37,125 bases of DNA, taken from positions 1 to 37,125 of the IMG/VR virus record IMGVR_UViG_3300044974_000662. One strand, 5' to 3'. Under the pieces are notes generated by a model. The model was given only the letters and a program-made list of their open reading frames with translations, was not told the origin of the DNA and made no database searches. Origin of the DNA: a virus. A program made the translations under genes and the position numbers. This document shows positions 1 through 37,125 of this stretch, piece after piece. How positions within the stretch are numbered: the stretch's first letter is position 1; every line of letters starts with the position of its first letter.

Positions 1-231
1 CCGTTTGAAATGCGCCGCCGGTTCAAAATGCAGAGCGGGCGGCTTGAGTGTTTTAACCACCGAGCCCGAGCGCAAATTTGTTGCTGCACGGGACCGCACG
101 AGCACCGGCAACTGCGGGCGTGGTTTCTGTCAGACGAGGCACAGAGCTTTTGCGACCTGATCGGCTGCACCCTCGACCCCGCCGAAATTTTCGCCAGCAC
201 CATAAAACACCACAGCGGAGGAAAACAATGA
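1..231 (+). CDS. Hypothetical early protein, 5'-truncated by the window edge
   Basis: The open frame enters from the left edge and stops at 231. It is the diverged homologue of the complete 140-aa protein at 33945-34367: both share PFEMRRRFKMQ near the middle, a Cys-rich CCTGPHEHRQLRAWF stretch and DLIGC near the C-terminus. Roughly the first 64 residues are missing here. The conserved Cys and His residues (C-C-x4-H-x-H) could bind a metal, but I recognise no family. The next gene starts at 228, so stop and start overlap, as in the right-hand copy. Confidence 0.75.
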   Translation, partial: PFEMRRRFKMQSGRLECFNHRARAQICCCTGPHEHRQLRAWFLSDEAQSFCDLIGCTLDPAEIFASTIKHHSGGKQ

Positions 232-410
232 GCAGCTACGAAATGGAAGTTGAAGATTTTCTGACGGACCTTAAGCGCAAGCTCGCGGTGGTTGAGCAGC
301 AAAACCAAGACCTGCGCGAAGTAAACAGCCGTTTGACTTTGGCACTCGACGAAGCGTTGGCCATCGCTCGCCGTTATCGCGGCGGCAACACCGAGGAGGA
401 AACACTTTGA
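228..410 (+). CDS. Small coiled-coil-like early protein (60 aa)
   Basis: A 60-residue, highly charged protein beginning MSSYEMEVEDFLTDLKRK. Heptad-like spacing (VVEQQNQDLREVNSRLTLALDEAL) suggests one long helix or coiled coil. The start is set by a good GGAGG Shine-Dalgarno about 6 bases upstream and by the matching start of the near-identical copy at 34364. Only the last few residues differ between copies (TEEETL against TEEHEL). Function unknown. It overlaps both neighbours by a few bases, so it is probably translationally coupled in the early operon. Confidence 0.8.
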   Translation: MSSYEMEVEDFLTDLKRKLAVVEQQNQDLREVNSRLTLALDEALAIARRYRGGNTEEETL

Positions 411-790
411 GCAATCTCGTAGAGGGAATGTTGGTCGGGTCAGTGGGCTTTGGGGAGTCCATCCAAGCTGGCCCGGCCAACTATTCTGCGGAAGACGCTA
501 TGGCTCGGAGCATCGTTCGGCTTGAGTGCGAGGCCGAGGAGTTGAAGGCTAGCCTGGCAATGGGCGAGGCCGAGCGCGACTTGCTGCGGGCTCAAGTCAG
601 GACGGGCGAGGGTTTGTTTACCGCGCTGCTCAAAACCATTGGCCAACTCCGAGAAGAAAAGGCTGAGTTGCTTGTTAAGGTGGTCAACCTACAAGGGCGC
701 AGCCGGCGCGCAACGCTTGACGAAATATCTGAGTCGGTCCGCGAGAAGTATGACCCCGAATACGAATTTGGAGGCCGCGAGGATGAGTAG
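407..790 (+). CDS. Hypothetical early protein with central coiled coil (127 aa), TTG start
   Basis: The start is TTG, overlapping the previous stop as TTGA; the copy at 34543 has the same arrangement. The N-terminus (LVEGMLVGSVGFGESIQAG) and C-terminus (SVREKYDPEYEFGG) are conserved between copies. The centre is Glu/Leu/Arg-rich, predicted helical, and about 30 residues longer here than in the right copy (97 aa). The length change sits in the coiled-coil segment, where indels are tolerated. Function unknown; no catalytic motif seen. Confidence 0.75.
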   Translation: MSNLVEGMLVGSVGFGESIQAGPANYSAEDAMARSIVRLECEAEELKASLAMGEAERDLLRAQVRTGEGLFTALLKTIGQLREEKAELLVKVVNLQGRSRRATLDEISESVREKYDPEYEFGGREDE

Positions 791-1184
791 CATGAGCCGC
801 AACAAGGGCGCACGCGGCGAACGCGAGGTGGCCGATCTAATCAAGGACGCCAGCGGCGGCGTCTTTGCCGCTCAACGTGGCTGCCAGCACGCAGGACGCT
901 TTGCCATTGGCGTGGCCTCGCCTGATGTGCTGACTGACTTACCTCTGCACCTTGAGGTTAAGCGCACGGAGAAGCCCGCCGTCAAAGCAGCCTGGGCGCA
1001 GGCGCTGGCAGACGCCGGCATTGAGAAAGAACCCTGCGTGGCAATCCGCTGGAACGGCGGCGAATGGTTGGGCCTTGTACGACTCTCGCACCTTGTCGCG
1101 GCCTTGGCCGAAATCTCGCGCCTCAAGACAACACTTTCGCAGTTGGAGAAACGGTTAAAGGAAATCGCTGACTCAACTGCTTAA
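783..1184 (+). CDS. Putative Holliday-junction resolvase / PD-(D/E)XK-type nuclease (133 aa)
   Basis: The N-terminus SRNKGARGEREVADLI, followed by a Gly-rich stretch, SPDVLTDLPLHLEVKRTEK and a C-terminal helix, fits the fold of small phage resolvase-like nucleases: E in GEREV, D in SPDVL and ExK in LEVKR are the likely metal and catalytic residues. I chose ATG 783, which overlaps the upstream stop by 8 bases and matches the start of the copy at 34829. The two copies are almost identical. By family knowledge such enzymes resolve recombination or replication intermediates before packaging. The last 30 residues (ISRLKTTLSQLEKRLKEIA) look like a coiled coil. The call rests on motifs only. Confidence 0.7.
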   Translation: MSSMSRNKGARGEREVADLIKDASGGVFAAQRGCQHAGRFAIGVASPDVLTDLPLHLEVKRTEKPAVKAAWAQALADAGIEKEPCVAIRWNGGEWLGLVRLSHLVAALAEISRLKTTLSQLEKRLKEIADSTA

Positions 1185-1196
1185 CACAAAAAAAGA

Positions 1197-1222
1197 CCCG
1201 CCGAGGCTGGAACCTCGACGGG
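1197..1222. promoter_or_regulatory. Conserved GC-rich hairpin in the leader before the recombination module
   Basis: CCCGCCGAGG, loop CTGGAA, CCTCGACGGG form a ten-pair stem with one C/A mismatch. It is preceded by seven A residues and is not followed by a T tract on the + strand, so as a terminator it would work on the minus strand. The + strand gene starts 15 bases downstream. The same hairpin is conserved at 35243-35268 even though the following genes are unrelated, making it the exact left boundary of the exchanged cassette. It may be a leader structure, an attenuator or a recombination foothold. Confidence 0.6.
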
Positions 1223-1237
1223 CGATTAACACACACA

Positions 1238-2164
1238 ATGGAATCGACTCAATTAAGCGTGTCAAGTGGCACAAATACAGTGGCAGCCTATCATCGGCAA
1301 GCCACAGACGTGGCCGGTGTCTGCAAGGACATCGTGCATCAAACGGCACAGAGCATCGGTGGGCGCAAATACGTCCGTGTTGAAGGCTGGCAGGCTATCG
1401 CTACCGCGCACGGCTGCGTGGCCTCGGCCCGAGACGTGGAGAAGATCGAGGGCGGCTGGCGCGCAATCGGTGAAGTCAGGCGCATGGACACCGGCAGCGT
1501 CATCGCCACTGCCGAGGGCTTTCTCGGAACCGACGAGCCCGTCTGGGCCAAGCGGCCCGAATACGCCAAGCGCGCAATGGCGCAGACTAGGGCAATCAGC
1601 CGCGCCTGCCGCTCGGCCTTTGCTCATGTGGTGGTGCTGATCGGTGGAGGCCTGGAGACAACGCCCGCCGAGGAAGTTCCAGCGGAAGGCTTCAGCGACA
1701 GCCCGCGCCCTGCGCCGTCACCGCGCCAAGTCCCGCGACTTGCCGAGGAGATCATCGACGTGGTGGCCGAGCGGGTAGAACCCAAAGCACCCATCCGCAA
1801 AAAGCAGCCAGTGGCGGCAATGGACGAGGGAGCAGATTGGACAACGGCTCGCTTCATCAAGGGCAACCGCCAAGACAAGACGAGCAAGGCTGGGAAGAGC
1901 TACACCCAGTGGGGCGTATTCGTAGAGATTGACGGCGCAGAAAAGGCCGAATGGCTCAACACCATTGACCGCGACCTTGGCGCAACCGTGGACGCGCTGG
2001 AGGCAGGGGAAAACGTGTTGCTGCAAGTCAAGACTGATGACTACGGGCGCAAGCTCGGGGCGATTCGGACGGCGGATGTGCCGACCAAGCATGAGGAGAA
2101 GGCTTCAGACAAAGACATCGAGTGGGGCAAGGGCGGCTCCGATGACTCCAGCATACCTTTTTGA
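1238..2164 (+). CDS. Putative ssDNA annealing/binding fusion protein (308 aa)
   Basis: The N-terminal about 150 residues hold KYVRVEGWQAIATAHG and YAKRAMAQTRAISRACRSAFA, a pattern I associate with an uncharacterised phage family often found where recombinases sit. After a Pro-rich linker, residues about 200-290 (from TTARFIKGNRQDKT to LGAIRTADV) look like a single small beta-rich, OB-like domain. The protein ends DDSSIPF, like the acidic tip of single-strand binding proteins. In the right-hand copy the same place is held by an ERF protein plus a separate SSB-like protein. I infer this one protein combines both roles. It lies directly before a nuclease module. The N-domain function is not proven. 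Confidence 0.6.
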   Translation: MESTQLSVSSGTNTVAAYHRQATDVAGVCKDIVHQTAQSIGGRKYVRVEGWQAIATAHGCVASARDVEKIEGGWRAIGEVRRMDTGSVIATAEGFLGTDEPVWAKRPEYAKRAMAQTRAISRACRSAFAHVVVLIGGGLETTPAEEVPAEGFSDSPRPAPSPRQVPRLAEEIIDVVAERVEPKAPIRKKQPVAAMDEGADWTTARFIKGNRQDKTSKAGKSYTQWGVFVEIDGAEKAEWLNTIDRDLGATVDALEAGENVLLQVKTDDYGRKLGAIRTADVPTKHEEKASDKDIEWGKGGSDDSSIPF

Positions 2165-2180
2165 CAAGGGAGCATAAGAG

Positions 2181-2651
2181 ATGAAGACCTGTTTCAAATG
2201 CGGTCAGAGCAAGCCGCTTAACGAGTTCTATGCTCACCCACGGTGCCGCCAAGGCACTCTAAACAAGTGCAAGGAATGCGCCAAGATTGACGCTGGGCTG
2301 CACTACCAAAAGCAGATGCAAGACCCAGCGTGGATTGCCAAGGAGCGTGAGCGTCAGCGCATTAAACAGCGCGCTCGCCGCGCCGCCGGCAAACAATCGC
2401 CAGCCAAGCCCGAAAGCAAAAACGCTTGGCGCAAACGCAATCCGCAAAAGTCGCGGGCGCAGATCCGTGTTGGCCATGCCGTCCGCAAAGGAGCATTGCT
2501 TCGCCAGCCTTGCGAAGTGTGCGGCAGTGTTACTGCCCAAGCGCACCACGATGACTACGACCGCCCGCTTGATGTGCGTTGGCTATGCACAAAACACCAC
2601 GCAGAGCACCACGTTCGTGTGCGGCTCATGGAACTGGGGGTGGCAGCATGA
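2181..2651 (+). CDS. HNH-type zinc-binding endonuclease-like protein (156 aa)
   Basis: Two Cys pairs at the N-terminus (CFKCG and CKECAK) form a zinc knuckle. The C-terminal CEVCGS, AHHDDYDRPLDVRWLC and HHAEHH are the hallmarks of a widespread phage HNH/zinc-ribbon family related to homing endonucleases. The middle is Arg/Lys-rich, suiting DNA contact. An SD-like AGGGAG precedes the ATG. The gene is absent from the right-hand allele and lies inside the exchanged cassette, which fits a mobile nuclease. Its stop overlaps the next ATG as ATGA. Nicking or cleavage activity is inferred from the motif. Confidence 0.75.
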   Translation: MKTCFKCGQSKPLNEFYAHPRCRQGTLNKCKECAKIDAGLHYQKQMQDPAWIAKERERQRIKQRARRAAGKQSPAKPESKNAWRKRNPQKSRAQIRVGHAVRKGALLRQPCEVCGSVTAQAHHDDYDRPLDVRWLCTKHHAEHHVRVRLMELGVAA

Positions 2652-3463
2652 GCAACCTCACAGGCATCCACTACGATATGCCCGAGGCCGATTACCGCTC
2701 GGCCCCGGCGATTGCTGGAAGTGACGCAAAACACATCCTGCCGCCCAAAACGCCCGCGCACTACGCGGCCCACATGGCAGGGGAAACCAAGCGCGAGCCA
2801 AGCAAGGCAATGCTCCTTGGCACGATGGCCCACCTTGCCGTTCTTGAGCCTAGCAAGCTCGACACGGCCTTTGTTGAGCGGCCCGAGGGCATTGACCTTC
2901 GGACCAAGCTCGGAAAGGAGTGGCGCGAGTCTGTCGGCGCAATGCCTGTGCTCGACCAGGACGAGGCTAGGGCCGTGCGGGGAATACGAGACAGTATCGC
3001 CGCAAACAAAGCGGCAAGGGAATTGCTCGCTGGCACAAAAAGCGAAGTGTCGGTCTTTGGCGACTCGCGCAGCGGGCTGGCAATCAAAGGCCGCGTGGAC
3101 GCGATGAAGGAAGGTGTCCTTGTGGACGTTAAGACCACAAGTGCGGGAGCGGACGCCAATGCGTTTTCGCGTCAGAGCTTCGCCCTCAACTACCACGTTT
3201 CGGCGGCTTGGTATTACTACCTTGCCACGCTCAACGATATGCCACCCAAGGCGTTTTACTGGATTGCCGTGGAAGTCGCACCGCCTTATGCGGTGGCCGT
3301 TTACGAAATTCACACTCAGGCGTTGCAGCTTGGCTTTCGCCAGATGACCGAGGCGTTGGAGCTTATCGCCCGCTGCGAGGACGAGGGCAACTGGCCTGGC
3401 TACGGCGACGAGGTGCAGACGCTCAACTTGCCCGCGTGGGCTTATGGGAAGGGGGCGGCATGA
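2648..3463 (+). CDS. RecE-like PD-(D/E)XK exonuclease (271 aa)
   Basis: The sequence follows the phage RecE/exonuclease VIII C-terminal nuclease family: an N-terminal Y-x-x-A-x-A-I-A-G-S-D motif, LGTMAHLAVLEP (the conserved His/Glu region), then KGRVDAM and LVDVKTTSAGAD, which supply the catalytic D and D-x-K, and finally NYHVSAAWYYYL (QxxxY-like). Such enzymes degrade one strand to make ssDNA for an annealing protein, and the annealing candidate lies just upstream. Start ATG overlaps the HNH stop. The right-hand copy (36130-36972) has an unrelated first 20 residues, so one allele boundary falls near AIAGSDAKHIL. Confidence 0.85.
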   Translation: MSNLTGIHYDMPEADYRSAPAIAGSDAKHILPPKTPAHYAAHMAGETKREPSKAMLLGTMAHLAVLEPSKLDTAFVERPEGIDLRTKLGKEWRESVGAMPVLDQDEARAVRGIRDSIAANKAARELLAGTKSEVSVFGDSRSGLAIKGRVDAMKEGVLVDVKTTSAGADANAFSRQSFALNYHVSAAWYYYLATLNDMPPKAFYWIAVEVAPPYAVAVYEIHTQALQLGFRQMTEALELIARCEDEGNWPGYGDEVQTLNLPAWAYGKGAA

Positions 3464-3717
3464 CCTGGCAACCCGAACTTATGTTTGGTGCGGAGCCAGA
3501 GACAAACCGCCGGCCAACACAAGCAGGGCGCATCCTTGAGTATTTGCGCGCAGGGAACCAGATCACGGCCTTGGAGGCGTTGGACGCCTTCGGTTGCTTC
3601 CGCCTGGCCGCTCGCATCCATGAGTTGCGGCGGGATGGGTGGGGAATTCAAGAGCGCACCGTGGAGACGCGGGGAGGCAAGAAGGTCGCAGAGTATTTTA
3701 TTGGAGGCGTGGCGTGA
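3460..3717 (+). CDS. Small winged-helix-like DNA-binding protein (85 aa)
   Basis: Begins MTWQPELMFGAEPETN. TQAGRILEYLRAGNQITALEALDAFG followed by LAARIHELRRDGWGI and a beta-rich tail (RTVETRGGKKVAEYFI) is the pattern of short phage winged helix-turn-helix proteins. ATG overlaps the exonuclease stop (ATGA), and the stop abuts the methyltransferase ATG. A second allele starts at 36969 and is cut by the window end. A regulatory or replication-accessory role is inferred from the fold only. Confidence 0.7.
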   Translation: MTWQPELMFGAEPETNRRPTQAGRILEYLRAGNQITALEALDAFGCFRLAARIHELRRDGWGIQERTVETRGGKKVAEYFIGGVA

Positions 3718-8407: not shown

Positions 8408-8421
8408 TTTGACCACCCCCG

Positions 8422-8973
8422 ATGACTCTCACAAAACTGGCCGAAATCCTCGAATGTCGCAACGCGCAGATCACCGAATGGAAGGCGAGGGGGATGCCGG
8501 TCGATTCCCCGGAATCAGCCCAGCAATGGCTGACAGCCCAGGGGGTGAAGCGCCGCCGGGCGCACTTCCAGAACAGGGAAAAGTTGGCCGCCCCAGCCTT
8601 GGCAAACCTCGAGCGCGGCGCAAGGGCTCGGCTGGACCGAGCAGCGGAGGGCGAGGCAAGGCACTACGAACTGTGGAACGCGGCGGCCTACAGCGACAAG
8701 GTCGACAGCAAGACGGTAGCGGAACTGGCGACGAGTTGGCGGGACATGAGGAAAGCGGCAGCGCAGGCGGAAACCGAGTATCACCAGTTCTGTGCTCAAA
8801 ATCTGATAACGCTGAACAGGCAGGAAACCCTGACGGCGTTTCGGGCGCTGATTTCGTCGGCGGTGCAGGATTTTTCCACGAAACCATGGGGGCAGGAAGC
8901 GAGGGCGATACTGAACAGCCACTTGGCAACATTGCCCGCGAAATTGAAACTGGATCAACAGCAGAAGGCCTAG
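8422..8973 (+). CDS. Terminase small subunit-like protein (183 aa)
   Basis: The N-terminal LTKLAEILECRNAQITEWKARGMPV is a helix-turn-helix of the lambda Nu1 type, followed by a long charged helical region and a C-terminal segment (FRALISSAVQDFSTKPWGQEARAIL). It sits directly before the large subunit and overlaps it. By family knowledge it recognises phage DNA for packaging. The start ATG lies just after the promoter; no Shine-Dalgarno is visible. It is the first gene of the late operon. Confidence 0.75.
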   Translation: MTLTKLAEILECRNAQITEWKARGMPVDSPESAQQWLTAQGVKRRRAHFQNREKLAAPALANLERGARARLDRAAEGEARHYELWNAAAYSDKVDSKTVAELATSWRDMRKAAAQAETEYHQFCAQNLITLNRQETLTAFRALISSAVQDFSTKPWGQEARAILNSHLATLPAKLKLDQQQKA

Positions 8974-10670
8974 AGGAAATCTTTGCGGCGGCCCTCGAGG
9001 TCACGGTGCCGCCGCCTCGCCCAGGCGTGGTTCATTGGGCCGAGACAACGCTAAAGCTCTCCGAGCGCATTACCAACCTGCCCGGCACCTACTCCACGGC
9101 CCGCACCCCTTACGTGCGCGAAGTCTTGGAGTGCTTTGCCGACGAGCGTGTCCGCCGGCTGGCCTTGGTATGGGGGGCGCAAACAAGCAAGACCACGGCG
9201 ATCATCGTCGGGATGGCCTACAAATTGGATAACGACCCCGCGCCCTGCCTTTGGGTCATGCCTTCAACGCACTTGGCTAGGTCATTCTCTGAGACCCGGT
9301 GGATGCCCTTGATCGACCAGAACCCGAAGCTCGCCCGCCACAAGCAGGCAGACGCGGACAAATACCGCTTGCTCGAGCAGCATTTTGACCGCATGAGCGT
9401 GTGGTTCACCGGCAGCAACTCGCCGGCCTCGCTTTCCTCAAGGTCGATTGCCGCTTTGTGCATGGACGAGCTAGACAAGTTTCCCGCCAAGGGCGGCAAG
9501 GAGTCAGCACCATTGCAGTTGGCCGAGGCCCGCGTGGCCACCTATCCGCAGCACATCATCATAACGACTAGCACTCCGACCTACGAGGACGGGGCGATTT
9601 GGAGCGAATGGCTCAAAGGCGACCAGCGCAAATACTTTGTGCCCTGCGCTGGCTGCGGGGAGGCGTTTGTCATGGAGTGGGAGACGATCAAATGGTCTCA
9701 GAAGGCCAAGCAAGACAGTGATTGGAACATGGAGCTAGTGGCCGAGACCGCCCGCTGCCATTGCCCAGCTTGCGACCACGCGCATGGTGAAGACGATAAA
9801 GACGCAATGCTTGAGCGCGGCGAGTGGAAGGCGACCGACCTTGCCGCCGAGCCAGGGCGGCGCAGCTATCATCTGTCCTCGCTTTACGCTCCTTGGCGCA
9901 AATGGTCGGACTTGGCCGTCAAGTTTCTCCAAGACCGCGAAACACCCGGCGGCCTGCAAGACTTTTACAACCGCGAGCTCGCCCTGCCGTGGAAGCCTGA
10001 CGGCGCAATGATCACCACGCAGATGATCCGTGACCGCGTGGACGCCTCGCCTCGCTTTACCATAGGCGAAGCGCCCGAGGGCAAGATGGTGGGACGGCTC
10101 ATGTCCATTGACGTGCAGCAAACCGAAATGTGGTGGCTTATCCGCGAGCTACACGAGGACGGCTCGAGCTATCTGCTTGATTACGGGGCGATGGTCGGCT
10201 GGGACGGGGTGATGGATAAGTTCCGCCATTACAAGTGTTATCGCGGAATCGTGGACGCCGGTTACGCCGCAAAGACCCCCGCTGGCGTCTACGACTTCGT
10301 GGCCAAGTCCGGCGGCCTCTTTGTCGCCGCCAAGGGCCGCACCGTCAGCCAAGGGCTCCGAGAGCCATACAAGTTCCAACAGATCGTGTCTTCCGGGTCT
10401 GTGCTGTGGGCCGTGCAGTTTGACGCACACTTTTGGCAGGCCAGGCTTTACCACGACATCTTGCGCGACGGGCGCGGGCGTTGGTATTTGCCTAGGGACA
10501 TCGCCAAAGACTACGTGACGCAACTGCAAGGCGAGGCACTGATTGAAAAAGACGGGGAAGCGAAGTGGCAACGCCTTGGCCCGAACCACCTTGCCGACTG
10601 CGAAAAGATGGCGCTAGTGCTGATCGACAGCATCATGGCGCAGTTTAAGGCTAACAACGCCGCCCCTTGA
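8886..10670 (+). CDS. terL: Terminase large subunit, lambda gpA-like (594 aa)
   Basis: From residue about 30 the sequence matches the GpA packaging ATPase/nuclease. An ATPase part has the unusual Walker A WGAQTSKTT at about 96-104 (typical GpA: GAQxGKT) and Walker B AALCMDELDKFP. A zinc-binding pair set follows (PCAGCG and CHCPACDH), and then a nuclease part with SIDVQQTEMWW and DAGYAAKTP carrying the Asp residues. The frame is open back to 8409, but that part is the other frame of TerS. I chose ATG 8886, an 88-base overlap. The product cuts and pumps DNA into proheads. TGA is embedded in TTGACA. Confidence 0.9.
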   Translation: MGAGSEGDTEQPLGNIAREIETGSTAEGLEEIFAAALEVTVPPPRPGVVHWAETTLKLSERITNLPGTYSTARTPYVREVLECFADERVRRLALVWGAQTSKTTAIIVGMAYKLDNDPAPCLWVMPSTHLARSFSETRWMPLIDQNPKLARHKQADADKYRLLEQHFDRMSVWFTGSNSPASLSSRSIAALCMDELDKFPAKGGKESAPLQLAEARVATYPQHIIITTSTPTYEDGAIWSEWLKGDQRKYFVPCAGCGEAFVMEWETIKWSQKAKQDSDWNMELVAETARCHCPACDHAHGEDDKDAMLERGEWKATDLAAEPGRRSYHLSSLYAPWRKWSDLAVKFLQDRETPGGLQDFYNRELALPWKPDGAMITTQMIRDRVDASPRFTIGEAPEGKMVGRLMSIDVQQTEMWWLIRELHEDGSSYLLDYGAMVGWDGVMDKFRHYKCYRGIVDAGYAAKTPAGVYDFVAKSGGLFVAAKGRTVSQGLREPYKFQQIVSSGSVLWAVQFDAHFWQARLYHDILRDGRGRWYLPRDIAKDYVTQLQGEALIEKDGEAKWQRLGPNHLADCEKMALVLIDSIMAQFKANNAAP

Positions 10671-33948: not shown

Positions 33949-34367
33949 TTTCCGAACTTGAAGGACTCACGGGCTCGGCCATCAACGGCAAGCCAATCAT
34001 GGCAACCGGGCATAAGTCGCCCGAGCGCAGCGGTTGGGAATTGCTTGCCTGGGCAATTTTGGAACAGGCGGTTGATGATCTGGCCACCTACTGTCGCTAC
34101 GGCCTAATTGATCCCCAAGGCAACTGTGGGCCGTGGCCGTTTGAAATGCGGCGGCGGTTCAAAATGCAGCGCGGGCGGCTGGAATGTTTCAACCACAAAT
34201 CCCGAGCGCAAATCGCTTGCTGCACGGGGCCGCACGAACACCGGCAGTTGAGGGCGTGGTTTATCAGCGGCGAAGCGCAAATATTTTGCGACTTGATCGG
34301 CTGCAATCTGCCTGCTGCGGAAATCTTTCAAAGCACGGTTAAACACCAAGCAGGAGGAATGAAATGA
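33945..34367 (+). CDS. Hypothetical early protein, full-length copy (140 aa)
   Basis: I chose ATG 33945, overlapping the upstream stop, over the longer open frame. Contains SERSGWELLAWAILEQAVDD-like helices (PERSGWELLAWAILEQAVDD), then the conserved RRRFKMQ, CCTGPHEHRQLRAW and DLIGC regions shared with the truncated copy at 1-231. A possible metal site of Cys and His. Function unknown. Confidence 0.7.
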   Translation: MISELEGLTGSAINGKPIMATGHKSPERSGWELLAWAILEQAVDDLATYCRYGLIDPQGNCGPWPFEMRRRFKMQRGRLECFNHKSRAQIACCTGPHEHRQLRAWFISGEAQIFCDLIGCNLPAAEIFQSTVKHQAGGMK

Positions 34368-34546
34368 GTTCTTACGAAATGGAAGTGGAAGATTTTCTGA
34401 CGGACTTAAAGCGCAAGCTGGCTGTGGTGGAACAGCAAAACCAAGACCTCCGCGAGGTAAACAGCCGTTTGACGCTGGCGCTTGATGAGGCGTTGGCCAT
34501 CGCTCGCCGCTATCGCGGCGGCAACACCGAGGAGCACGAACTTTGA
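34364..34546 (+). CDS. Small coiled-coil-like early protein, second copy (60 aa)
   Basis: Nearly identical to the product of 228-410, with many silent changes at the DNA level. This shows purifying selection on the protein and supports its reality. SD AGGAGG upstream. Stop overlaps the following TTG. Confidence 0.8.
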   Translation: MSSYEMEVEDFLTDLKRKLAVVEQQNQDLREVNSRLTLALDEALAIARRYRGGNTEEHEL

Positions 34547-34836
34547 GCACTCTCGTAGAGGGAATGTTGGTCGGGTCAGTGGGCTTTGGGGAGTCCATCC
34601 AAGCTGGCCCGGCCAACTATTCCTGCACCGAGGACGCAATGGCACGATCTATCGTGCGGCTTGAGTGTGAGGCCGACGAACTACGGGCCACGGTGGCCTT
34701 ACTTGAGGCAGAGCGTGAAATTCTGCGGGTCAAGCTCATGGCCAGCGCACGGACTGCAACGCTTGAGCAAGTCAGGGACTCGGTGCGGGAGAAATACGAC
34801 CCCGAGTATGAATTTGGAGGAGGCCAAGATGAGTAA
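34543..34836 (+). CDS. Hypothetical early protein, short allele (97 aa), TTG start
   Basis: Homologue of 407-790 with the same TTG start and conserved ends (LVEGMLVGSVGFGESIQAG and SVREKYDPEYEFGG), but about 30 residues shorter in the central coiled coil. Function unknown. Confidence 0.75.
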   Translation: MSTLVEGMLVGSVGFGESIQAGPANYSCTEDAMARSIVRLECEADELRATVALLEAEREILRVKLMASARTATLEQVRDSVREKYDPEYEFGGGQDE

Positions 34837-35230
34837 AATGAGCCGCAACAAAGGCGCACGCGGCGAACGCGAGGTGGCCGATCTAATCAAGGACGCCAGC
34901 GGCGGCGTCTTTGCCGCTCAACGTGGCTGCCAGCACGCAGGACGCTTTGCCGTTGGCGTGGCCTCGCCTGATGTGCTGACTGATCTGCCTTTGCACCTTG
35001 AGGTGAAGCGCACGGAAAAGCCTGCCGTCAAAGCAGCCTGGGCGCAGGCGCTGGCAGACGCCGGCATTGAGAAAGAACCCTGCGTGGCAATCCGCTGGAA
35101 CGGCGGCGAATGGTTGGGCCTTGTGCGCCTTTCGCACCTTGTCGCAGCACTGGCCGAAATATCGCGCCTCAAGACAACACTTTCGCAGTTGGAGAAACGG
35201 TTAAAGGAAATCGCTGACGCAACTGCTTAA
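34829..35230 (+). CDS. Putative Holliday-junction resolvase, second copy (133 aa)
   Basis: Almost identical to 783-1184, including GEREVADLI, SPDVLTDLPLHLEVKRTEK and the C-terminal coiled coil. ATG 34829 overlaps the upstream stop by 8 bases, as in the left copy. Confidence 0.7.
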   Translation: MSKMSRNKGARGEREVADLIKDASGGVFAAQRGCQHAGRFAVGVASPDVLTDLPLHLEVKRTEKPAVKAAWAQALADAGIEKEPCVAIRWNGGEWLGLVRLSHLVAALAEISRLKTTLSQLEKRLKEIADATA

Positions 35231-35242
35231 CACAAAAAAAGA

Positions 35243-35268
35243 CCCGCCGAGGCTGGAACCTCGACGGG
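35243..35268. promoter_or_regulatory. Conserved leader hairpin, second copy
   Basis: Same stem and loop as 1197-1222, including the C/A mismatch and the preceding A tract. After it the two alleles diverge completely. Confidence 0.6.
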
Positions 35269-35285
35269 CGATTGAAACACACACA

Positions 35286-35813
35286 ATGGAGACGAACCCA
35301 GAGAGCGTGTCAAAAACACGCAAACAGATATGCGCCGCCTTGGTCAAGGCCCAGAAAGGCTTTGGCCCGGCGCTCAAGAGCAGTCAAAACCCGCACTTCA
35401 AGAGCCGCTACGCCGACCTTTCGGCCTGCGTTGAAGCCGTGGTTGAGGCGTTGAACGACAACGGCATTGCCCTTACTCAGCACACACACCACGCCGAGGG
35501 TGGCGTTTGCGTGGAGACTATCCTAATCCACGAATCGGGCGAGGAGTTGAGCTTCGGCAAGCTCTTTGTGCCTTGCACCAAGCAAGACGCTCAAGGCTAC
35601 GGCAGCGCCATAACTTACGCCCGCCGCTACCAACTGCAAACCGCGCTCGGCATCGCGCCGGAAGACGATGACGGCAACGCGGCCAGCGCATCCGCTCCGC
35701 GCCCGGCTCCCAAGTTTTCTTACGCGGCTCGCGCCACGCAGGAAGCACCAAAGGCCAAGCCTAAACCCGCGCCAGCCCCAGCGGCGGCAGACGATGACCG
35801 CATTCCTTTTTAA
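35286..35813 (+). CDS. erf: ERF-family ssDNA annealing protein (175 aa)
   Basis: The ERF signature is clear: ALVKAQKGFGPALKSSQNPH, FKSRYADLSACVEAVVEALN, GIALTQHTHHAEGGVCVETI, then QGYGSAITYARRYQLQTALG and IAPEDDDGN. ERF proteins anneal complementary single strands in phage recombination and genome circularisation (P22 Erf is the type). The linker is Pro/Ala/Lys-rich and the end DDDRIPF copies the SSB acidic tip. It occupies the place of the unrelated 308-aa protein in the left copy and is followed by an SSB-like gene and a RecE-like exonuclease. Confidence 0.9.
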   Translation: METNPESVSKTRKQICAALVKAQKGFGPALKSSQNPHFKSRYADLSACVEAVVEALNDNGIALTQHTHHAEGGVCVETILIHESGEELSFGKLFVPCTKQDAQGYGSAITYARRYQLQTALGIAPEDDDGNAASASAPRPAPKFSYAARATQEAPKAKPKPAPAPAAADDDRIPF

Positions 35814-35845
35814 TCAACCAACAACGAACCAACCAAAAACACATT

Positions 35846-36127
35846 ATGGCAATTCAACTAAAAATCGACGTTAGCAAAATCAGCAAGCCCGACCTCTACC
35901 AGGGCAAAAAGGGCATCTACCTGGACGCAATCCTTTGGGAGAACCGCGACGGGCAAAGCCAATACGGAGACGATGGCTACATCACTCAGGGCATCAGCAA
36001 AGAGAAGCGCGATGCCGGCGAGCGCGGGCCGATCATCGGCAACTGGAAGCACATGGAGAAGAAGGCTGACGCGCCGAAGGCAAAGCCCCAGGCCGAGGAG
36101 ATGGCCGACACAGACATACCCTTCTGA
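35846..36127 (+). CDS. Small SSB-like protein (93 aa)
   Basis: AIQLKIDVSKISKPDLYQGK, GIYLDAILWENRDGQSQYGD and DGYITQGISKEKRDAGERGP give a short OB-like strand set, followed by an acidic tail ending DTDIPF as in SSB. It probably coats ssDNA for the ERF protein. The leader is C/A-rich without Shine-Dalgarno. No separate counterpart in the left copy, where a similar domain appears fused at the C-terminus of the 308-aa protein. Confidence 0.7.
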   Translation: MAIQLKIDVSKISKPDLYQGKKGIYLDAILWENRDGQSQYGDDGYITQGISKEKRDAGERGPIIGNWKHMEKKADAPKAKPQAEEMADTDIPF

Positions 36128-36129
36128 CC

Positions 36130-36972
36130 ATGCGAACCCTCAAATACGGAACCGCTGGTCTGTTTTACGACATGATCGAGCAGGAATATCGGGGCCAGAC
36201 GGCAATCGCTGGCTCGGACGCAAAGCACATCCTTTCGCCAAAGACGCCCGCACACTACGCGGCACACATGGCAGGAGAAACCAAGCGCGAGCAGACCAAG
36301 GCCATGATGCTCGGCACGATGGCCCATGTGGCCGTTCTTGAGCCGAACAAGCTCGACGCGGCCTTTGTGGAGAAGCCCGAGGGCATCGACTTCCGCACTA
36401 AGCTCGGTAAGGAGTGGAAGGAGTCTGTCGGCGCAATGCCTGTGCTTGACCAGGACGAGGCCCGAGCCGTGCGTGGAATCCGCGACTCAATCGCCGCAAA
36501 CAAAGCGGCGAGGGATCTGCTGGCCGATACGCAAAGCGAGGTGGCTCTGTTTGCCGAGCACCGCAGTGGCCTTTGGATCAAGGGCCGAGTCGATGCGCTC
36601 AAAGTGGTTGACGATATGGAGTGCGTTATCTGCGACGTGAAGACCACGAGCGCAGGGGCCGACTACAACACGTTCTCACGGCAGGCGGCATCGCTTAACT
36701 ACCACGTCAGCGCAGCCTGGTATTGCCATCTGGCGGGGCTGAACGGGTTGCCGCCGGCACGGTTCTACTGGATCGCGGTGGAGACGAGTGCGCCGTTTGC
36801 GGTTGCCGTTTACGAGATCCACCCCGACGCGCTGGATCTCGGCGTGGGCATGATGAATGGCGCGCTGGAACTCATCGCTCAGTGCGAGGACGCGGGCGCG
36901 TGGCCGGGCTATGCTCCACAGGTGCAGTGCCTCAACTTGCCGAGTTGGGTTTATGGGAAGGGGGCGGCATGA
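36130..36972 (+). CDS. RecE-like PD-(D/E)XK exonuclease, second allele (280 aa)
   Basis: Strongly similar to 2648-3463 from AIAGSDAKHIL onward, with a different N-terminus (RTLKYGTAGLFYDMIEQEY). The nuclease motifs LGTMAHVAVLEP, KGRVDALK, CDVKTTSAGAD and NYHVSAAWYCHL are present. It makes ssDNA for the ERF/SSB pair upstream. Stop overlaps the next ATG. Confidence 0.85.
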   Translation: MRTLKYGTAGLFYDMIEQEYRGQTAIAGSDAKHILSPKTPAHYAAHMAGETKREQTKAMMLGTMAHVAVLEPNKLDAAFVEKPEGIDFRTKLGKEWKESVGAMPVLDQDEARAVRGIRDSIAANKAARDLLADTQSEVALFAEHRSGLWIKGRVDALKVVDDMECVICDVKTTSAGADYNTFSRQAASLNYHVSAAWYCHLAGLNGLPPARFYWIAVETSAPFAVAVYEIHPDALDLGVGMMNGALELIAQCEDAGAWPGYAPQVQCLNLPSWVYGKGAA

Positions 36973-37125
36973 CTTGGCAACCCGAACTCATGTTTGCCGA
37001 GCCAGAGACAAACCGCCGGCCAACACAAGCAGGGCGCATCCTTGAGTATTTGCGCGCAGGGAACCAGATCACGGCCTTGGAGGCGTTGGACGCCTTCGGT
37101 TGCTTCCGCCTGGCCGCTCGCATCC
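36969..37125 (+). CDS. Small winged-helix-like protein, second allele, cut by the window end
   Basis: Same start as 3460-3717 (MTWQPELMF) with a one-codon deletion soon after (FAEPE against FGAEPE). From 36999 to the end the DNA is identical to 3493-3619. The 3' end is missing only because the window stops. Confidence 0.7.
   Translation, partial: MTWQPELMFAEPETNRRPTQAGRILEYLRAGNQITALEALDAFGCFRLAARI

Follow-up and report, generated by a model that had tools for sequence, protein, structure and literature searches.

The window is an IMG/VR virus record in its entire length (37,125 bases), and its two ends were homologous to each other. By blastn, positions 1-596 matched 34137-34734 (81.5%), 710-1265 matched 34756-35313 (91.6%) and 2706-3619 matched 36200-37125 (78%), and homology was absent between 1266-2705 and 35314-36199. 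On the left, the unmatched segment held most of the gene for a 308-aa protein together with an HNH endonuclease gene; on the right, it held the genes for an ERF annealing protein and a 93-aa SSB-like protein (Table 1). This agreed with the first-pass annotation, which had described two alleles of one locus with conserved flanks: all of the left and right ORFs that it named were present, the left flank, comprising a nuclease/resolvase gene and a hairpin, was conserved up to 1265/35313, and on the right homology restarted at position 2706, within codon 20 of an exonuclease gene, at the AIAGSDAKHIL stretch it had pointed to. The start of the left-flank gene was set at MSSMSRNKG by comparing both copies.

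Table 1. Positions in the window of the features of the left and right alleles and of the contig end
Feature	Positions	Strand	Basis or remark
Left-flank nuclease/resolvase (PDDEXK_15)	783..1184	+	PF24608, E 1.9e-6
Conserved hairpin, left edge of exchange	1196..1223		~20 nt before recombinase start
308-aa protein: candidate annealing domain, linker, OB-like tail, SSB-like tip	1238..2164	+	
N-terminal domain, aa 13-155	1274..1702	+	Predicted model, mean pLDDT 83, pTM 0.74
OB-fold tail domain, aa 201-277	1838..2068	+	pLDDT ~92
SSB-C-terminal-like tip DDSSIPF, within aa 301-308	2138..2161	+	Ending [IV]P[FY]
Left-allele exchanged cassette, without homology to right allele	1266..2705	+	blastn edges
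HNH endonuclease	2181..2651	+	phrog_2340, E 1e-34
PD-(D/E)XK exonuclease (DUF3799/exonuclease VIII PHROG)	2648..3463	+	PF12684, E 4e-31; phrog_412, E 6.5e-71
Right-copy flank nuclease/resolvase	34829..35230	+	PF24608, E 2e-6; phrog_244 (RusA-like resolvase), E 1.2e-13
Right-copy hairpin	35242..35269		Sequence identical to left copy
ERF annealing protein, right allele, ends DDDRIPF	35286..35813	+	PF04404, E 4e-25
93-aa SSB-like protein, ends DTDIPF	35846..36127	+	Position, tip, constant company of ERF in this phage group
Right-copy exonuclease	36130..36972	+	PF12684, E 7e-29
Contig end, exact 127-base copy of 3493-3619	36999..37125	+	blastn; assembly junction

The same annotation had read the left segment as a cassette swapped as a unit, and this held for the 308-aa gene, which is exchanged against ERF plus the SSB-like gene, but not for the HNH gene. 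Among relatives, an HNH gene stood in the recombinase slot in just one locus besides the window (L116:3130-3612), and in five others (L139, L142, L153, L166 and L174) it lay downstream, over 3 kb from where the exonuclease gene starts. We therefore rejected HNH as part of the cassette; it is a mobile inserted neighbour outside the exchanged module. The flanking resolvase was also found to be swapped, with a PDDEXK/RusA-like protein in the window and a phrog_1770 Holliday junction resolvase in relatives (L003:3360-3944 and L010:2238-2843).

A reading of both copies as parts of one genome was not borne out by the assembly. The exact match of the contig end to 3493-3619 halted after 127 bases; metagenome assemblers usually have 127 as their largest k, and contigs broken off at a branch point share one k-mer. 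Since the end repeat has the length of a typical assembly k-mer, the alleles probably derive from two co-assembled strains and not from one genome. Positions 3493-36998 most plausibly form a circular genome of 33,506 bp carrying the ERF allele, and positions 1-3492 are probably a branch from a second phage strain, joined at the shared k-mer. Tandem prophages are known to exist, and both alleles do lie within one contig, yet their residence on a single DNA molecule in that arrangement is improbable, given that the exact repeat breaks off at 127 bases, where the contig stops, and that related records, 32-39 kb long, carried one recombination module apiece. The allelic comparison holds, and a tandem duplication is unlikely. 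The assembly is probably lariat-shaped, with two strains in one contig, a form that escapes end-repeat tests, the initial 3.5 kb lying outside the circle. The large terminase (8409-10670) had its closest match in Akkermansia phage Moulinsart (32.5%), a weak hint, from sequence, of a Verrucomicrobiota host.

Domains of the 308-aa protein

Searches of Pfam, NCBIfam and PDB sequences with the 308-aa protein returned nothing, and the models for ERF (PF04404), RecT (PF03837), Rad52_Rad22 (PF04098) and SSAP_Sak/DUF1071 (PF06378) were not matched; nor did a profile search of PDB sequences give a match. Residues 16-156 matched phrog_19042, a family of 'unknown function', at E 5e-65. A full-length AlphaFold2 model built from 34 sequences had two confident domains and a disordered linker, the first domain spanning residues 12-135, and the N-terminal domain was also modelled alone from 43 sequences (scores in Table 1). 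Its predicted elements were, in order, a long helix (12-36), a beta-hairpin (38-45), a helix (48-57), three long strands (60-70, 73-82 and 88-97) and a long helix (108-135). In Foldseek searches of the PDB with this model, human RAD52 or yeast Mgm101 accounted for 14 of the 15 top matches, at modest values (E 0.005-0.04; query TM under 0.5, at 0.33-0.45; probability 0.89-1.0), and the remaining entry was a lipoprotein, not an enzyme. The core of the annealase superfamily is a beta-hairpin and a beta-sheet with helices (PMC11783212), and the modelled element order agrees with such a core, although TM did not exceed 0.45 and no E fell below 0.005. Structure prediction, which the first-pass annotation had proposed as a check on its reading of this domain, thus points towards an annealase-like arrangement, and no unrelated enzyme fold emerged. 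Invariant columns of the 43-sequence alignment included E49, W51, M114, T117, R118 and R125, mostly in the long helix.

Compared profile to profile, the N-terminal domain appeared to resemble RecT-like proteins weakly but specifically. The match to the 32 RecT-like proteins collected had an E of 1.4e-4 (probability 53%), or 2.6e-4 when the one protein that shares its tail was left out; controls gave 0.5-0.75 with reversed profiles and 0.5-0.7 with exonuclease and HNH profiles, and a larger alignment weakened the match to 1e-3 or 6e-4, the probability never exceeding 53%. The region matched comprised the strands and the helix with M-x-Q-T-R-A-I-S-x-A-x-R. An ERF profile gave no signal with the domain, even when the ERF set was widened by 22 loci; ERF and RecT-like profiles do not match each other either, so the missing signal between the N-terminal domain and ERF says little.

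For the tail, the full-length model has the strand pattern of an OB barrel (residues 201-277), with fold matches in the PDB to RPA, bacterial and mitochondrial SSB and gene V protein (E 0.003-0.03) and no match to the Pfam SSB family (PF00436). The [IV]P[FY] ending was found in 81 of 96 close relatives, usually after acidic residues, and in 2 of 1529 other ORFs of the same loci. The fold matches of the model and the IPF tip support an OB/SSB-like tail built into the protein, as originally suggested. In the same slot, 11 of 14 ERF proteins and nearly all of the SSB-like proteins also ended in [IV]P[FY], and the 93-aa protein of the window had no Pfam match. The tail and the 93-aa protein aligned at the IPF tip only, which lends no support to common descent of the two. 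Tails differed among relatives: OB-like in the window, ExoX-C-like in most (PF20600, E 9e-5, below its cut-off, in L008) and helical in others.

Occupants of the recombinase slot

To survey the locus we used the exonuclease, not the candidate, as bait, and obtained 80 viral loci, some of them near-duplicates. The gene 5' of the exonuclease encoded the new domain with an OB tail in 11, ERF with the 93-aa SSB-like protein in 14 and a RecT-like protein in 38; none of these 63 callable slots was doubly occupied. Three further loci were truncated there, and in the 14 distant loci none of the three types was detected at the sensitivity used. In 30 records, 29 of which carried the new domain, we found no ERF, Rad52 (PF04098) or Sak3 (PF06378), and the single RecT-like protein was in the record that lacked the new domain. 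In these slots and records, surveyed for mutual exclusion as the first-pass annotation had suggested, the new gene never stood beside ERF, RecT, Rad52 or Sak3, and the co-occurrence with ERF that would have spoken against its reading was not seen. Within the close group, ERF alleles came with a separate SSB-like gene, whereas fusion alleles did not.

A tree of the exonucleases implied about nine changes among the three states, at least five to six of them forced by well-supported branches, a count that recombination inside the exonuclease gene may have inflated; the set also included near-copies. The right-hand exonuclease of the window, from the ERF allele, grouped with that of L102, which has the new domain; the exonucleases of L129 (ERF) and L128 (new domain) likewise sat together, as did those of L103 (ERF) and L104 (RecT-like).

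Heads were also exchanged within single genes. When the tail alone was used as query, 12 loci were found, 11 with the new domain and one viral contig (L010/L104/L193) in which that tail follows a RecT-like head (phrog_561, E 4e-30). In the Leptospira plasmid NZ_MF974398, a new-domain protein is followed by Gp157, and its tail corresponded to the C-terminal part of an 'ERF family protein' in NZ_CP092677 and NZ_CP092164 (40% identity, E 2e-14), of which the former is likewise followed by Gp157; phrog_34817 was matched in its front half by the ERF of the window and in its back half by the Leptospira tails. Judged by sequence, these are two independent fusions in which the tail was kept and the head changed, and since both RecT and ERF can take the place of this head while the tail stays, the simplest reading of the head is a third annealase.

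The hairpin stood in front of all three recombinase types; next came AACACACAC(C)A-ATGGA, with no Shine-Dalgarno sequence. Its shape was kept despite sequence change: across the window and L102-L127, 95.5% of cells were paired, and changes on both sides occurred at seven of nine pairs, a result that none of 500 shuffles equalled. Rfam had no match for it. As a plain minus-strand terminator in general it was rejected, the T-run being absent in most relatives, though that reading suits the hairpins of the window and some relatives. A leader RNA or an exchange boundary is a candidate role.

Beyond this slot, the close family comprised 250 viral loci and the wide family at least 570 in viral contigs, with ten loci in bacterial genomes, mostly alphaproteobacteria. 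The new-domain gene adjoined a DUF3799 exonuclease in L009, a PHROG-named exonuclease in L091 and L092, and SSB in L093; it was followed by Gp157 and then SSB in L005, by Gp157 in L307 and L308, and by a PD-(D/E)XK nuclease in L309, and it lay between Gp157 and NinB/Orf in L097. Neighbours of the Gp157, Gam and SSB types have been reported beside erf and related genes (PMC8093625). In one part of the wide family (L194-L273), a conserved protein of ~154 aa lay downstream in 73 of 80 loci and a small DnaA-C-domain protein upstream in 71 of 80, and no recombination gene could be named among the neighbours. Where annotation of relatives was readable, in Leptospira and Thiothrix plasmids, it was 'hypothetical protein', and tblastn of a 50,697-record collection of named phages gave no match for the window protein or for two wide-family members. 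The new-domain protein very probably represents an unrecognised phage recombinase family present in hundreds of viral sequences.

A candidate family of annealing proteins

The first-pass annotation had nominated the N-terminal domain as a new type of annealing protein from its replacement of ERF, a proposal that slots, tree, head swaps, contexts and predicted fold all support. We consider it highly likely that the domain has a RAD52/RecT-type fold and constitutes a so far unrecognised family of single-strand annealing proteins of phages. Replacement shows equal need, not equal chemistry, and the domain could instead mediate recombination or protect DNA ends in the manner of Gam, Orf or RecO, enabling the use of host recombinases, a role that would suit Gp157, NinB/Orf and SSB as neighbours and an SSB-like tip suggestive of docking to host repair proteins. 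Annealases, however, are the best PDB matches of the domain, RecT-like annealases are its sole sequence link, and the accessory factors Gp157, NinB and SSB already adjoin the gene (L005, L097, L307), which together leave a mediator unlikely. With TM below 0.5 and E near 0.01, the likeness of fold might also be a chance alpha/beta match, the domain being an unrelated hitch-hiker in a hypervariable locus that takes up HNH genes too. Such a passenger is hard to reconcile with strict exclusion of ERF and RecT in 63 slots, with repeated switches, with two head swaps onto kept tails and with contexts conserved in unrelated hosts, and we regard it as very improbable indeed.

As an annealing protein, the 308-aa protein would act after the neighbouring PD-(D/E)XK exonuclease had resected a DNA end: the OB tail would cover the exposed single strand, and the N-terminal domain would pair the covered strand with a complementary one, R118, R122 and R125 of the long helix being the likely DNA contacts. 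The acidic IPF tip might recruit partners that normally bind host SSB, or engage the annealing domain. In other alleles the equivalent work would fall to ERF plus a small SSB-like protein, or to a RecT-like head joined to this OB tail. We infer DNA binding, annealing and oligomerization, as well as each step of this reaction. The exchange of alleles is an instance of the mosaicism usual among phages at gene boundaries, and the recombinases themselves probably assist it.

Phage annealases are known as a kind, but the new-domain family is not recognised as one in Pfam, NCBIfam, PHROG annotation or the literature found. With RecT-like proteins (PF03837; phrog_561) it shares the slot beside the exonuclease, the OB tail of L010 and a strand-strand-long-helix profile likeness, but it matches neither PF03837 nor a RecT PHROG and, at ~155 aa, is shorter than RecT-like heads. 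ERF (PF04404; P22 Erf) shares its slot, its downstream genes and, in Leptospira plasmids, its tail, and differs in having no sequence similarity to the domain even at profile level and, in this phage group, in having its SSB-like protein encoded separately. RAD52 and Mgm101, although the top fold matches of the model, have no sequence match to the domain, which is smaller than they are. The domain is a member of phrog_19042, which Leptospira proteins match over the length of its profile, but that family has no assigned function and a different C-terminal tail. Bacterial and phage SSB and RPA OB folds resemble the modelled tail, which shares the acidic IPF tip; unlike them, it lacks a Pfam SSB match and is fused to a candidate annealing head. 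A structural survey listed ~207,000 unannotated annealase candidates at TM >0.5 (PMC11783212), and the new-domain family may be among them, unnamed.

Phage annealases are reported to recognise the C-terminus of SSB and to rely on the SSB tail of the host (PMC10711431); a protein that brings an OB domain and a tip of its own might therefore meet this need itself. It is conceivable, though we hold it only tentatively and at rather less than even chances, that the new domain is a separate annealase family in which the proteins that have both OB tail and tip would combine annealase and SSB in one self-contained recombinase, freed from the need to match host SSB. If correct, the annealing assignment explains a common unknown gene of phage recombination modules and supplies editing candidates for bacteria in which Red-beta fails, together with a set of natural variants whose heads and tails have been swapped separately.

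In L170 (4803-5624), a 273-aa protein of phrog_3657 (unknown function) was encoded between a DUF3799 exonuclease and SSB, a placement that, by the same logic, makes it another candidate annealase.
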